Source: Actinophytocola algeriensis
GTDB lineage: Bacteria; Actinomycetota; Actinomycetes; Mycobacteriales; Pseudonocardiaceae
Assembly (NCBI RefSeq): GCF_014203735.1
Contig: NZ_JACHJQ010000006.1
Span: 753,698-817,697 of the forward strand
Direction: 5' to 3'
Length of the DNA: 64,000 bases
Shown piece by piece: positions 36,941-62,725 of this stretch (positions are counted from its first letter, which is position 1; every line of letters starts with the position of its first letter). A model generated the notes under the pieces. It saw only the letters and a list, made by a program, of their open reading frames with translations, did no database searches and was not told the DNA's origin. A program made the translations under genes and the position numbers.

Positions 36941-37776
36941 AGATCATGACCATCTTCGCCCACCCGGCGGACACGATCACCAACTGCGGCGGCACGCTCG
37001 CCCGGCACGCGGACCGGGGCGACGAGATCGTCGCGCTGATCCTCACGCACGGCGGCCGGATCCACGCGAACTCCTGGGTCGAGGAGTGGCGCAAGGACGA
37101 ACCGGACCAGGCGGTCACGTCGGCGGGACTCGCCGAGGTCGTCGCGAACAAGAAGGCGGAGCTGGCACGTGCGGCGGAGATCGTCGGCATCGGCCGGGTG
37201 ATCACCCTCGACCACGACGACGCCCGGTGCACGGTCGACGAGGACATCGTGGACCAGATCGCCGCGCACGTCGCGGACTTCGCGCCGGACGTGGTGATCA
37301 TGGACTACCCGAAGAACCCGGTGGTGCCGGACTCGCACACCACGGCGAGCGTGATGGCGCTGAACGGCGTCAACCGCGCGGCGACCTACCTGCGCAACCT
37401 CGACGGCCGCGACGAGTTCTGGGTCAAGCAGATCTTCTTCGCAGGCCTGCCGGTGACGGTGACCGAGGTGCTGTCGCTGCACGGCATCCGCAACGACACC
37501 TATGTGGACATCACACCGGTCGTGGGCCGCAAGGTGGCCGCCATGGACCAGTTCGTGAGCCAGGCGTACGACGGGTTGTTCGCGCGGAAGCTGATCGAGT
37601 CGTGGAACGGCGAGTGCGGGCGCGCGGCGGGAGTGAACTTCGCCGAGGCGTTCTGCCGGTACTACAACGAGACGCACCCCCACCTGCCCGTCACCGACCA
37701 CGCGCTCGCCGTTGACCCGGTGACGCGGCACGTCGAGTACTCGCGGGTCGGCCTGCGGGCGGAGTACCCGTGCTGA
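36937..37776 (+). CDS. PIG-L family deacetylase-like protein
   Basis: 279 residues. The N-terminal FAHPADTITNCGG corresponds to the AHPDDE motif of PIG-L/LmbE deacetylases; Zn-binding His and Asp remain but the first Asp, the usual general base, is Ala. PDSHTTAS supplies the third Zn-ligand region. Family members remove N-acetyl groups from sugars (MshB, GlcNAc-PI deacetylase). The altered motif may mean a different mechanism or lost activity. Translationally coupled to both neighbours. Confidence 0.83.
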   Translation: MKIMTIFAHPADTITNCGGTLARHADRGDEIVALILTHGGRIHANSWVEEWRKDEPDQAVTSAGLAEVVANKKAELARAAEIVGIGRVITLDHDDARCTVDEDIVDQIAAHVADFAPDVVIMDYPKNPVVPDSHTTASVMALNGVNRAATYLRNLDGRDEFWVKQIFFAGLPVTVTEVLSLHGIRNDTYVDITPVVGRKVAAMDQFVSQAYDGLFARKLIESWNGECGRAAGVNFAEAFCRYYNETHPHLPVTDHALAVDPVTRHVEYSRVGLRAEYPC

Positions 37777-38861
37777 TCAAGGGCGCGGTGCTGCGGACTG
37801 CCGGCGCGAGCAGGCCGTACCGGTCGACACGGCCGTTGTCCATCGAGGACGTGACGCTGGCGCCGCCCGGCGAGGACGAGGTGCTGGTCGAGATCGAGGC
37901 GGCCGGGGTCTGCCACTCCGACCTGTCGGTGATCGACGGCAACCGGCCCCGGCCGGTGCCGATGCTGCTCGGTCACGAGGCGGCGGGCCGGGTGGTGACG
38001 CCGGGTGCCGGGTTCGACGTGGGTGACCGGGTGGTGCTGTCGTACCTGCCGAGATGCGGTTCGTGTGCCGGGTGCGCGTCGGCGGGGCGGTTCCCGTGCG
38101 CACCGGGCTCGCAGGCCAACGCGGCGGGCACGTTGTTCGGCGGCGAGCGCCGGTTGTCCGTGGCCGGGGCGCCGGTGCACCACCACCTGGGTGTGTCGGC
38201 GTTCGCGACGCACGCGGTGGTGGACCGGCGGTCGCTGGTCCGGGTGCCGGACTCGGTGCCCGCGGAGGTCGCGGCGCTGCTCGGGTGCGCGGTGCTGACC
38301 GGCGGCGGGGCACTGCTGAACGCGGCGTCGTTGCGGGCCGGGGAGTCGGTGGCGGTGGTCGGCCTGGGCGGGGTCGGCCTGGCCGCGGTGCTGACGGCCG
38401 CCGCACTGGGCGCCGGCGAGATCGTCGCGATCGACCCGGTGGCGGCGAAACGCGCGACGGCGGCCGCGCTCGGCGCGACCCGGACGATGTCACCCGAGCA
38501 GGCGGCGGGGCTGGCGGTGGACGTCGCGGTGGAGGCCGCCGGCGCGGGTGCGGCGGTGTCGACGGCGCTCGCGGTCACGGGTCCGGGCGGCCGGACGGTG
38601 ATCGCGGGGCTGACGCATCCGGACGTGCGGGTGCCGGTGTCGCCGCTGGACCTGGTCGCGAACGGGCGGAGCGTGATCGGGAGCTACATGGGTTCCTCGG
38701 TGCCCGCGCGGGACGTACCCCGGTTCGTGGAGCTGTGGCAGGCGGGACGGCTGCCGGTCGAGCGGCTGATCAGCGCCCGCATCGGCCTGGCCGACCTGAA
38801 CGAGGCCATGGACGACCTGGCCGACGCGACCGCGCTACGACAGGTGGTGCTTCCTGGCTAG
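37770..38861 (+). CDS. Zinc-dependent alcohol dehydrogenase (MDR)
   Basis: 363 residues, GTG start overlapping the previous gene by 7 bases. Catalytic-Zn ligands in AGVCHSD and LLGHEAAG, structural-Zn cysteines CGSCAGCASAGRFPC, and the NAD-binding VGLGGVGLAAVL are all present. It probably oxidises a polyol or hydroxy intermediate made by the pathway encoded here. Confidence 0.92.
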   Translation: MLIKGAVLRTAGASRPYRSTRPLSIEDVTLAPPGEDEVLVEIEAAGVCHSDLSVIDGNRPRPVPMLLGHEAAGRVVTPGAGFDVGDRVVLSYLPRCGSCAGCASAGRFPCAPGSQANAAGTLFGGERRLSVAGAPVHHHLGVSAFATHAVVDRRSLVRVPDSVPAEVAALLGCAVLTGGGALLNAASLRAGESVAVVGLGGVGLAAVLTAAALGAGEIVAIDPVAAKRATAAALGATRTMSPEQAAGLAVDVAVEAAGAGAAVSTALAVTGPGGRTVIAGLTHPDVRVPVSPLDLVANGRSVIGSYMGSSVPARDVPRFVELWQAGRLPVERLISARIGLADLNEAMDDLADATALRQVVLPG

Positions 38862-39250
38862 TGCTGTGTCCACCAGCGTTTGCCGGGTCCTCCGGCAGGT
38901 CCGGCCAAGCCGACGGTGATCGTCGTACCGGGTGGGCTGGTGTGCCGCGAAAGGCGCGTTCAGGACATCGCCGGTGCCGTGAAAGGCGCGTTGAGGACGT
39001 TGAGTGCCCTGAAAGCGCCTTTCACAGCATGGCCAACGCCGCGAACGCGCCTTTCACAGCACAACGGACACCGTGAAGGCGCGCAGGCGCGAAGGGGCGC
39101 AGGCGCGAAGGGGCGCGAGCCCCACACCACACCCGAGGCTGCCTGCCATCCCGGAGACCTGCCCCTCCGGCGAGGAGCCGCCGGAGGCAAAACCCCGTCC
39201 GGCAAGGACAAACCACGAACCCACCCCGGCCAACGCAAGTGGACACAGCA
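38862..39250. other. Repeat-filled intergenic region
   Basis: 389 bases with no gene. It holds the composite repeat 38942-39213. The frame on the minus strand looks repetitive (AVKGAF.. units) only because the DNA repeats. Confidence 0.7.
38942..39213. repeat. Composite intergenic repeat (REP-like)
   Basis: Two forward units of GYGAAAGGCGCGTT (about 38946 and 38977) face two reverse units (around 39010 and 39045), enough for a cruciform. A 16-bp exact tandem (39085-39100, 39101-39116) follows. Then come 39122-39152, matching 48945-48975 (reverse strand) with 2 of 31 mismatches, and 39173-39213, matching 1811-1850. Confidence 0.7.
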
Positions 39251-48923: not shown

Positions 48924-48944
48924 ATCGGGCTTCGCCAGGTCGAC

Positions 48945-48975
48945 GGGATGGCGGGCAGCCTCGGGTGTGGCGTGG
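48945..48975. repeat. Dispersed intergenic repeat, copy C
   Basis: Matches the reverse complement of 39122-39152 with 2 mismatches in 31. Confidence 0.6.
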
Positions 48976-49018
48976 CTTGCGCCCGCTTCTCTCGTCGTGG
49001 CGTCCGGGTCTGGTCGCG

Positions 49019-55112: not shown

Positions 55113-56470
55113 GATTTCTCCGCCAGCGCTCGGGACGCGGCGCCCAGTGCCGTGGCGGCGTCCGCCTCGGACACGGTGCGGACCTCGTCGTCCTCGACGA
55201 TCACGTTGCCGCCCGCGAGCAGCAGCGCGAGCGGCGGCAGCGCGCCGAACACCAGTGCCGCCACCGGATCGGTGATGCCCGCGTGGTTCATGCCGGTCAG
55301 CCGCCACACGGCCAGGTCGGCCTGCTTGCCCGCCTCGAGCGAGCCGATCTCGGCCTCGCGGCCCAGGACACGCGCGCCGCCTCGGGTGGCGAGCCACAGC
55401 CCGTCGCGGGCGGTGGCCGAGTGCGGGCCGTTCTTCTGCCTGGCCAGGTACACCGCCTGGCGCAGCTCGATCCCGAGCCCACCGTCCTCATTGGACGCGG
55501 CACCGTCGACGCCGAGGCCGACCGGGCACCCGGCGTGCACCAGGTCCTGCACCCGGGCGATGCCGGCACCGAGGCGGGAGTTGGAGGTCGGGCAGTGCGC
55601 GACGCCCGTGCCGGTCGCGCCGAGCCGGGCGACCGCGTCGTCGGAGAAGTGGATGCCGTGCGCGAACCACACGTCCTCGCCGAGCCAGTCGAGCCGGTCG
55701 GCCAGCTCGGCCGGGGTGCAGCCGTACTCGTCGAGGCACTGGCGTTCCTCGTCGAGGGTCTCCGCGAGGTGGGTGTGGAGGCGGACACCCTTGTCCCGCG
55801 CCAGTTCCGTCGCCTTGCGCATCAGGTCCTCGCTCACCGAGAACGGCGAGCACGGCCCGACCGCGATCCGCGTGAACGAACCCGGCGACGGGTCGTGGAA
55901 CGCGTCGATGGCGGCCGCGGTGCCGGTGAGCGCGCCGTCCAGGGTCTCGACGATCGAGTCCGGCGGCAGACCGCCCTGCGACTCGCCGCGGTCCATGGAC
56001 CCGCGCACACCGTGCAGCCGGATGCCGACCGTGCGCGCGGCCTCGACGGTCGCGCCGAAGGTGTCACCGGCGTTCCGCGGGATGACGTAGTGGTGGTCGG
56101 CGGCGGTCGTGCAACCGGTGCGGGCGAGCCGGGTGAGGCCCGCGACCGCCGCGGTGTGGACGATCGTCTCGTCGATGCCGGCCCACACCGGGTACAGCGC
56201 GGTCAGCCACTCGTACAGCGTGGCGTCCTGCGCGTAGCCGCGGGTGGCCCACTGGTAGAGGTGGTGGTGGGTGTTGACGAAGCCCGGCGTGACGAGGCAG
56301 CCGGTGCCGTCGATCCACCGGTCGGCCGCCGGCCCGGGTGGCGCGGCGCCGTCGCCGACCGCCTCGATGATCCCGTCGGTCACGACGACGTGCCCGTAGC
56401 GGTACTCGGTGCCCGCGCCTTCGCCGCCGTCGACGGTGGCGATGGCGGCGTTCTCGATGATGGTCCTCAT
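55109..56470 (-). CDS. Amidohydrolase: 8-oxoguanine/guanine-type deaminase
   Basis: 453 residues; ATG at 56470 overlaps the Fe-S subunit stop. The metal-binding HxH (VNTHHHLYQW), LHTHLAET, the His of WFAHGIHF and VDGAASNEDG match the 8-oxoguanine deaminase/chlorohydrolase branch of cytosine-type amidohydrolases. It would form urate from 8-oxoguanine, or xanthine from guanine, feeding this operon; the choice between these is open. Confidence 0.87.
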   Translation of the reverse strand: MRTIIENAAIATVDGGEGAGTEYRYGHVVVTDGIIEAVGDGAAPPGPAADRWIDGTGCLVTPGFVNTHHHLYQWATRGYAQDATLYEWLTALYPVWAGIDETIVHTAAVAGLTRLARTGCTTAADHHYVIPRNAGDTFGATVEAARTVGIRLHGVRGSMDRGESQGGLPPDSIVETLDGALTGTAAAIDAFHDPSPGSFTRIAVGPCSPFSVSEDLMRKATELARDKGVRLHTHLAETLDEERQCLDEYGCTPAELADRLDWLGEDVWFAHGIHFSDDAVARLGATGTGVAHCPTSNSRLGAGIARVQDLVHAGCPVGLGVDGAASNEDGGLGIELRQAVYLARQKNGPHSATARDGLWLATRGGARVLGREAEIGSLEAGKQADLAVWRLTGMNHAGITDPVAALVFGALPPLALLLAGGNVIVEDDEVRTVSEADAATALGAASRALAEKS

Positions 56471-60544: not shown

Positions 60545-60925
60545 TCAGTCCAGGACGGCCAGCGCGTCGATCTCCACCAGCAGGCCCTCGGGGAGGCCGA
60601 CGTAGACGGTCGTGCGGGCCGGGAAGGACTCCTCGAAGAACTCGCGGTACGCGTCGTTCAGCTCGCCGAAGTGGGCCGTGTCGGTGAGGTAGACGCGGCA
60701 CATGATCACGTCGTCGAGGGTGGCACCGCCCGCCTCGAGGACCCGGCGCACGTTCTGCATGACCTGGCGGGTCTGCTCGGTGACCGTGGTCCCGACGATC
60801 TCGTTCGTCGAGGGGTCGAACGCCACCTGGCCGGCCACCTGCAGGATGTTGCCCTTGCGGATGCCGTGCGTGAGCGGCACCGTCGGGATCTTCGTTCCCT
60901 CCGGGTGGATCGCGACCTTCGCCAT
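60545..60925 (-). CDS. ridA: RidA family enamine/imine deaminase
   Basis: 126 residues from the ATG at 60925 with gaggag upstream. The family pattern VAGQVAFDPSTNE, CRVYLTDTAHF and PARTTVYVGLP with the terminal EIDALA is complete; the Arg that contacts the substrate carboxylate is in CRVYL. It clears reactive enamines left by PLP enzymes, fitting the PLP lyase gene across the divergent promoter. Confidence 0.92.
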   Translation of the reverse strand: MAKVAIHPEGTKIPTVPLTHGIRKGNILQVAGQVAFDPSTNEIVGTTVTEQTRQVMQNVRRVLEAGGATLDDVIMCRVYLTDTAHFGELNDAYREFFEESFPARTTVYVGLPEGLLVEIDALAVLD

Positions 60926-61036
60926 CAGTTGCTCCTCCTCGTTTCCGGGTTGTCGATGTAGATCACCTCGCCGACCTCGCGAGACGCGACGTGCACAGTG
61001 TGGCCCGGCATCAGTTGCTCCTCCTCGTTTCCGGGT
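60923..61036. repeat. Duplication of iclR end plus displaced iclR fragment
   Basis: 28 bases at 60923-60950 are identical to 61009-61036; the stretch between them (60950-61007) is about 88% like 61441-61498 inside iclR. Confidence 0.8.
60925..61011 (-). CDS. 28-residue coupled mini-ORF derived from iclR
   Basis: ATG at 61011 overlaps the iclR stop and the TGA at 60925 overlaps the ridA start, with gaggag in front. The product, GHTVHVASREVGEVIYID followed by NPETRRSN, is an internal IclR segment (~residues 92-110) joined to the IclR C-terminus. Translation is plausible; function is doubtful. Confidence 0.5.
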   Translation of the reverse strand: MPGHTVHVASREVGEVIYIDNPETRRSN

Positions 61037-61769
61037 AACCACACTCGACGGACGCCGCCGACGCCGCGGCCAGCAACGCCGGCACCAGCTCCAGCAGACC
61101 GTCCAGGTCGAGCACGACCTGCGGCACCGACAACGACATCGCCGCGAGCACCTCGCCCCGCGCGCCGCGCACCGGCGCGGCCACGCAGTGGATGTGCTCC
61201 TCGTGCTCCTCGTCGTCGATCGCGTAGCCCCGCGCCGCCACCCGGTCCAGCTCCGCCAGGTACGCGCGTGGCGTGGTGATCGTGTTCGGTGTCATCTTCT
61301 CGTACGTGATCGACGCGGCGATCTCCCTGCGCTGGTCCTCCGGCAACGCGCCGACCAACACCTTCGCCACGGCCGTGCAGTGCAGTGGCGCGCGGCGGCC
61401 GATGCGGGAGTACATCCGCACGTTGTGCCTGCTCTCGTACTTGTCGATGTAGATCACCTCACCGTCCTCGTAGGACGCGAGGTGCACGGTGTGGCCGGTC
61501 TCGGCGTTCAGCGCGCGCAGCGCGGGCTCGACGCTGCGCCGCACGTCCCGCTCGTCGAGCGCCCGGAACGCCAGCTCGAACAGCGACGTGCCGAGCCGGT
61601 AGTACCGGATCCCGTCGCGCTGCACGAACCGGTGCGACTCGAGCGTGCGCAGCAGCCGCAGCACGGTCGTCTTGTGCACGTCGAGCCGCATCGCCAGCTG
61701 GTCGAGGGTCCGCTGCCCGTTGGCCAGCTCGTCGAGCAGCACGAGCGCGCGGTCCAGGCTCTGGCTCAT
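61011..61769 (-). CDS. IclR family transcriptional regulator
   Basis: 252 residues from the ATG at 61769. HTH: RTLDQLAMRLDVHKTTVLRLLRTLE; effector domain: GHTVHLASYEDGEVIYIDKYES, LHCTAVAKVLVGALP and DEEHEEHIHCVAAPV. Starts within the kdgK stop (ATGA). Probably controls this operon and the divergent PLP gene, using KDG or a related sugar acid as effector. Confidence 0.92.
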   Translation of the reverse strand: MSQSLDRALVLLDELANGQRTLDQLAMRLDVHKTTVLRLLRTLESHRFVQRDGIRYYRLGTSLFELAFRALDERDVRRSVEPALRALNAETGHTVHLASYEDGEVIYIDKYESRHNVRMYSRIGRRAPLHCTAVAKVLVGALPEDQRREIAASITYEKMTPNTITTPRAYLAELDRVAARGYAIDDEEHEEHIHCVAAPVRGARGEVLAAMSLSVPQVVLDLDGLLELVPALLAAASAASVECGYPETRRSN

Positions 61770-62725
61770 GACAGGTCCCCGGTCACGTACGCGTCGGCCC
61801 ACTCCGCCTCGGACGCGTGCAGCATCGCGGACACGTACTCCGGCGGCAGCGACGGGCCGACGTCGTGGTGGGTGCGCAGCGCGGTCGCGGCCCGCAGGTG
61901 CCCGGCCCGCAGCCGCGCCCTCGGCGCCCACCCGGCGAGCGTGGCCTGCAGGAACCCGGCGGCGAACGCGTCACCGGCCCCGACCGGCTCGACCACGTCG
62001 ACCTTCAGCGCGGGCTGGCACAGCTCGGCGTCGCCCTCGACGAGCGTCGCACCCTCGGCCCCCTGCTTGACCACGAGCGTCGCCGGTTCCGGCAGCAGCG
62101 CGCGGATCTGTCCCGGCTCCTCGACACCCCACACGAGCTTGGCCTCGTCGGCGCCGACGAACACGACGTCCGCGGCGGCGGCGAGGTCCCGCAGCACCGA
62201 GGGGTCGCGGTCGGCCCAGAGCCGGGGCCGCCAGTTGAGGTCGAACGACAGCGTGAAGTCCCGTGGCCGGTGCACCAGGCGGTCCATCAGCGCGAGGCAG
62301 CTGTCCGACAGCGCGGGCGTGATCCCGCTGGTGTGCACGACCCGCACCTCGTCGAGCGGCAGCTCGTCGAGCAGCGCGGGCCCCATGCCGGAGGCGGCGG
62401 AGCCGCGGCGGTAGTAGCGGACCGGGCTGCCGGAGGCGTCGCGTTCCTTGACGTACAGGCCGGTCGGCCGGTCCTGGTCGACCGCGACGCGGGACACGTC
62501 GACGCCGAACGACGCGACCGCGGCGGTGACGGCCGTGCCGAACGCGTCGTCGCCGACCGCGCTCACCCACGCCGACCGCAGCCCGAGCGCGGCGACGTGG
62601 CAGGCCACATTGGACTCCGCGCCGCCGACCGTCCGGTGCCACGTGGTCACCTCGGCGGGCGGGCCCGGTTCGGCGGGCACGAACATGGCCATGGTCTCGC
62701 CGAGGCACAACACATCGGTACGCAC
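61766..62725 (-). CDS. kdgK: 2-keto-3-deoxygluconate kinase (PfkB family)
   Basis: 319 residues. N-terminal VLCLGETMAMFVP and VGGAESNVACHVAALG, a KDG-type RYYRRGSAASGM substrate loop, and C-terminal VEPVGAGDAFAAGFL with the catalytic Asp are typical of KDG kinases. Makes KDPG for aldol cleavage to pyruvate and glyceraldehyde 3-phosphate. Confidence 0.88.
   Translation of the reverse strand: MRTDVLCLGETMAMFVPAEPGPPAEVTTWHRTVGGAESNVACHVAALGLRSAWVSAVGDDAFGTAVTAAVASFGVDVSRVAVDQDRPTGLYVKERDASGSPVRYYRRGSAASGMGPALLDELPLDEVRVVHTSGITPALSDSCLALMDRLVHRPRDFTLSFDLNWRPRLWADRDPSVLRDLAAAADVVFVGADEAKLVWGVEEPGQIRALLPEPATLVVKQGAEGATLVEGDAELCQPALKVDVVEPVGAGDAFAAGFLQATLAGWAPRARLRAGHLRAATALRTHHDVGPSLPPEYVSAMLHASEAEWADAYVTGDLS

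Follow-up and report, generated by a model that had tools for sequence, protein, structure and literature searches.

A 28-codon reading frame formed from a displaced piece of iclR at the iclR-ridA junction of Actinophytocola algeriensis

The window, a stretch of 64,000 nucleotides of the Actinophytocola algeriensis genome (contig NZ_JACHJQ010000006.1, positions 753,698 to 817,697), carries a run of genes on the minus strand in the order PfkB kinase, iclR, a 28-codon mini-ORF and ridA (Table 1). The kinase gene is the upstream neighbour, and its stop overlaps the iclR start through the sequence ATGA. The best match of IclR among solved structures is 1ysp, named 'Transcriptional regulator kdgR', which would suit a sugar-acid operon.

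Table 1. Features of the iclR-ridA locus, in positions of the window.
Feature	Positions	Strand	Basis or remark
PfkB-family sugar kinase gene	61766..62725	-	PF00294, E 4.4e-52, and ORF
iclR, 252 aa, parent of the fragment	61011..61769	-	PF01614 and PF09339 (HTH and C-terminal domain)
iclR segment to which the fragment corresponds (residues 92-109)	61441..61496	-	Falls in a beta-hairpin predicted for the effector-binding domain
First copy of the 28-nt repeat, with the 3' end of iclR, Shine-Dalgarno (61025-61020) and TGATG	61009..61036	-	
Predicted RNA hairpin across the new joint, spanning the mini-ORF Shine-Dalgarno and ATG	60997..61045	-	-18.9 kcal/mol
Mini-ORF, 28 codons, MPGHTVHVASREVGEVIYIDNPETRRSN	60925..61011	-	Sequence reading
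Displaced iclR fragment	60950..61005	-	49/56 identity with parent
Second copy of the 28-nt repeat, with the 3' end of the mini-ORF, Shine-Dalgarno (60939-60934), TGATG and the ridA start	60923..60950	-	
ridA (Ribonuc_L-PSP family), 126 aa	60545..60925	-	PF01042, E 2.5e-31

The junction between iclR and ridA contains an insertion of 86 nt, 56 nt of which are derived from iclR. In self-BLAST the fragment matches its parent segment, 491 nt away, with an E value of 4e-12, a likeness that is not due to chance. The initial annotation had put it at about 88% over 58 nt; the derivation from iclR is correct and the likeness holds (49/56), and extending the span to 58 nt adds one further mismatch. The flanking 28-nt repeat, ACCCGGAAACGAGGAGGAGCAACTGATG, comprises the last iclR codons, the Shine-Dalgarno sequence, the stop and the next start, and is present in two exact copies 86 nt apart. 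With up to 3 mismatches allowed it has only 2 sites in the 9.73-Mb genome, and the control pattern, the same sequence read backwards, has 0. Apart from the fragment pair and the 28-nt pair, self-BLAST of the window (E 1e-3) gave no direct repeats within 14 kb of each other.

The mini-ORF opens with ATG-CCG, continues with the fragment, read as it is in iclR, and closes with the last seven codons of iclR, also in frame, giving 28 aa. It has no Pfam match at E 0.001 and neither the HTH_IclR nor the IclR_C domain, whereas the parent has both of these IclR-family domains. Both joints are TGATG (61013-61009 and 60927-60923) with a spacing of -1, and AGGAGG stands 8 nt before each ATG. A stop/start overlap with a Shine-Dalgarno sequence, the arrangement of a translationally coupled junction, is thus found at each joint, as in the TGATG-coupled gene pairs treated in the excerpted part of PMC12548453. 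Here, unlike in such pairs, the frame between the joints is no conserved gene but a piece of 28 codons that the relatives examined lack. Direct reading confirmed the mini-ORF as first annotated, namely an iclR-like fragment followed by an exact 28-base repeat of the iclR 3' end, with TGATG overlaps kept at both junctions; the interpretation attached to it was partly supported, as discussed below.

The search for the fragment covered 390 genomes of the family, one genome per species. Among five other members of Actinophytocola, the insert is missing in the four that have the locus (G001, G002, G003 and G005); the fifth, G004, yielded no match to ridA at E 1e-30. In the nearest relative, Actinophytocola oryzae, iclR passes to ridA through a single TGATG without the insert. 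The ridA gene lies directly behind iclR in 47 of 48 named loci (L069-L116, with L117 left out), two of which are the A. oryzae and A. xinjiangensis loci already counted within the genus; the gap ranges from -14 to 198 nt. The 13 gaps of at least 31 nt contain nothing resembling the upstream 1.8 kb and no iclR fragment; the remaining gaps, of at most 29 nt, are too short for a 56-nt piece. A recurrent mini-ORF at this junction was considered by comparing 14 relatives (the 13 gaps and locus L112) with their own upstream sequence, and was rejected: the best ungapped scores were 8-12, against 35 in the window. The fragment as DNA, with two candidates scored per genome, had matches in 161 of the 390 genomes, the own genome included, and the fragment peptide in 166; in both searches the own genome gave 2 matches and every other genome 1. 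A plasmid search returned 16 records; coverage of the query stayed below 80% in every one, and in 13 of the 16 the match lay on an IclR or BhcR annotation. Junction alignment in related genomes, the check proposed in the initial annotation, thus found the insert in none of the relatives examined, and the mini-ORF is not kept among them. Searches of open-licence PMC papers, judged by titles and abstract openings, listed nothing on this iclR-ridA junction.

Short tandem repeats occur at this junction elsewhere in the family, direct repeats of at least 10 nt being present in 3 of 47 loci. In Allokutzneria sp. NRRL B-24872 (L112:3770-3806) an independent short duplication includes a Shine-Dalgarno sequence and an ATG at 18-nt spacing and is not seen in the related locus L108. 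In Saccharothrix deserti (L100:2356-2440) there are about five tandem 17-nt units, the first of which, GTCGGCTGACCGGACAA, includes the iclR stop codon. These two look like real duplications, and the repeat in L079 is a CCA run. The ridA gene of G003 (L038) has one internal TAG in the six-frame search, possibly a frame break, an edit or an assembly error.

Among 62 distinct IclR segments, the closest to the fragment are those of A. oryzae (6/56 different) and of the own iclR (7/56). One of the fragment differences (GGC versus GGT) is common to A. oryzae and 38 of the 62 segments; the other 6 of the 7 are found in neither the own nor the A. oryzae iclR. The bases of these six are rare: those at positions 9 and 32 occur in 0 of the 62 segments and those at positions 16, 24, 25 and 26 in 1, 2, 3 and 1. 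The adjacent changes at positions 24-26 may represent one event. They convert TCCTACGAGG to TCTCGCGAGG and so complete a perfect palindrome of 8 nt, as might be expected if a hairpin had served as template for a multinucleotide change, as in template switching (PMC8604942, PMC7202029). Between the own genome and A. oryzae, 46 of 132 fourfold sites differ in iclR and 24 of 68 in ridA, about 35% (JC 0.47-0.48). At 6/56, the fragment has diverged roughly half as much as fourfold sites have along each branch (JC 0.47/2); if it has been neutral and the six differences lie on one branch, it would date from about halfway back to the split from A. oryzae. The age first offered as an explanation of the approximately 12% divergence fits these values, 6 of 7 differences being private while the two genomes differ at about 35% of fourfold sites.

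We consider it probable that the insert is a lineage-specific scar of a partial duplication, likely translated, whose peptide has no selected role. After the split from A. oryzae, a repair or replication error would have placed a copy of 55-58 nt of iclR in the iclR-ridA junction and duplicated 28-31 nt around it. The piece would have landed in frame behind the duplicated Shine-Dalgarno sequence and TGATG, and the 28-codon frame would be readable for that reason. Translation, plausible from the sequence, would most likely be the work of ribosomes moving on from iclR to ridA; the peptide itself most probably has no role under selection, and at most the open frame would carry ribosomes across 86 nt to ridA. 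The route may have been a single step, either a template switch back by about 0.5 kb and return or the uptake of a short copied piece at a staggered break that was then filled in, or two steps, a tandem duplication of about 490 nt followed by an internal deletion of about 405 nt. The one-step and two-step routes yield an identical product and are indistinguishable. The distal joint has a 1-nt overlap, and end joining would be possible because the genome contains two Ku homologues.

The anatomy is that of such a scar, with an insert templated nearby (the 56-nt match 491 nt away) and a flanking 28-nt duplication unique in the genome. Scars of template switching and end joining likewise show a short local direct duplication around a filler copied from nearby, with little microhomology; the difference is that the scar here retained the frame and the ribosome sites. 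Both joints are in frame, an outcome with a chance of 1/9 that speaks mildly for selection on the frame. The open frame itself needs no selection, because it survives six random substitutions without a stop 82% of the time (P = 0.82). Against the scar stands the contrast between the identical 28-nt repeats and the fragment, with its differences at 6-7 of 56 positions. At a rate of 6/56 an unchanged repeat (0/28) has a probability of 0.04, and at 4/56, when the three adjacent changes are counted as one event, of 0.13; the Fisher P is 0.09 for 7/56 versus 0/28 and 0.30 for 4/56. The unchanged repeat is a mild tension and could mean that the donor was another allele, that mutations were clustered or that the ribosome site is constrained. 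The duplication scar is ordinary in kind and neat in detail, and even if it is only a scar it represents a clear, roughly datable case of a partial duplication that created a translatable frame and left the operon unbroken.

The strength of the hairpin predicted at the new joint also counts against a plain scar. It has 12 pairs around the mini-ORF ribosome site within 49 nt, and 11 of 1000 mononucleotide shuffles fold as low, in a comparison made for a feature noticed after the fact. It is stronger than every one of 747 alternatives made by joining this 3' end to positions in iclR, the best of which (-18.7) falls 0.2 kcal/mol short; with unmutated iclR, joins made close to the actual site do no better than -14.6 kcal/mol. 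In longer context the predicted openness (mean unpaired) of the mini-ORF ribosome site is 0.32 versus 0.50 for that of ridA. A structured RNA element was rejected as a candidate: the 141-nt junction folds like its shuffles (z -0.02, 93 of 200 as low). The A. oryzae junction has a z of -0.84, and the window has no Rfam match at gathering scores.

It is possible, if somewhat unlikely, that the peptide sequence is irrelevant and that selection keeps the open frame to pass terminating iclR ribosomes on to ridA, a proposal compatible with the scar origin. Both joints combine TGATG at -1 spacing with a strong Shine-Dalgarno sequence and both are in frame, the same TGATG joins iclR to ridA in A. oryzae, and the spacing would be +85 without the frame. 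The excerpted part of PMC12548453 gives coupling as best at -4 to +3 nt, 3- to 10-fold lower by about +40 nt and, in one case, none at +89 nt. A non-coding insert of 86 nt would weaken coupling, and the open frame could therefore preserve it. However, ridA retains its own AGGAGG and ATG, and coupling may not matter to it. Tight coupling is not kept across the family, since the iclR-ridA gap is long in some relatives and reaches 198 nt; moreover, spacing rules vary, and the same excerpt includes one study in which coupling stayed undiminished between -4 and +25 nt (PMC12548453). Judged from the sequence, the likeliest consequence of the mini-ORF would be a hand-over of ribosomes from iclR to ridA, and preservation of coupling would be its most plausible selected property.

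An origin of the fragment in a paralogue or, by horizontal transfer, in another species is improbable. In its favour, the fragment has 7/56 differences whereas the flanking repeat has 0/28. However, searches of the own genome and of the 390 family genomes gave no nearer source: the closest sequence outside the own genome is the orthologous iclR of A. oryzae, none of the 62 distinct segments has fewer than 6 differences, and the six private bases are as rare in those segments as described above. The paralogous donor suggested in the initial annotation is thus unsupported, and the donor is best read as the iclR of the own lineage.

A functional micropeptide, in which the beta-hairpin of the IclR effector-binding domain would bind and tune IclR as AcnSP does aconitase, is very improbable. 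The precedent is AcnSP of Synechocystis, a protein of 44 aa that is 81% identical to the AcnB N-terminus and, according to excerpts of PMC7336809, probably arose from partial gene duplication; its expression was verified and the mutant grows more slowly. The two cases share a short frame from a fragment of a resident gene for a homodimeric protein, a moderate divergence and an altered end. They differ in that AcnSP lies on a plasmid with sequence like that upstream of its parent (PMC7336809), while the mini-ORF lies directly behind its parent, and in that AcnSP is an expressed protein, while the mini-ORF product is a predicted one. The mini-ORF would thus resemble the starting material of AcnSP-like small proteins, as far as those excerpts describe them. 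In the AlphaFold model of IclR (mean pLDDT 82; 85 for residues 91-100 and 69 for residues 101-110) the fragment residues 92-109 lie in two predicted strands, 94-101 and 104-111, and the mini-ORF peptide would be an isolated hairpin.

The micropeptide is found in no other genome examined, and two of its three changed residues, L97 and Y100, do not vary among 20 aligned orthologues; across the larger set, 61 of 62 segments have the Leu and 57 of 62 the Tyr. Six random substitutions would be expected to change 4.4 residues, against the three seen (P(<=3)=0.17); with so few changes the test is weak. Random substitution had been named at the outset as a pattern that would speak against a role; the pattern found is compatible with no constraint, as far as so weak a test reaches. 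It is similarly improbable that a newborn micropeptide gene arose in one event, with the beta-hairpin piece copied behind a duplicated ribosome site, an RNA hairpin that makes its start depend on iclR translation and a peptide competing within the IclR effector-binding domain. If it did, each regulator would be made along with its own modulator, and a working peptide would mean that a regulator gained a self-derived modulator through one rearrangement.

An assembly or sequencing artefact is extremely unlikely, although the assembly is a draft of 23 contigs and the one genome of the species in the comparison, because the fragment differs at 7/56 from the only other matching site in the genome whereas a misassembly would repeat existing sequence, and the ribosome site and frame are exact; the segment can be taken for real sequence.

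Other repeats were noted in the window. An inverted repeat at 38941-39063 (73% over 123 nt), with units of the GAAAGGCGCGTT type, lies downstream of an ORF at 37770-38861 on the plus strand, presumably an alcohol dehydrogenase gene, and is perhaps an intergenic hairpin repeat. Self-BLAST also gave an inverted repeat of about 55 nt (86%) between 39107-39161 and 48936-48989 and a direct 39-nt repeat (90%) between 1097-1135 and 55904-55942.
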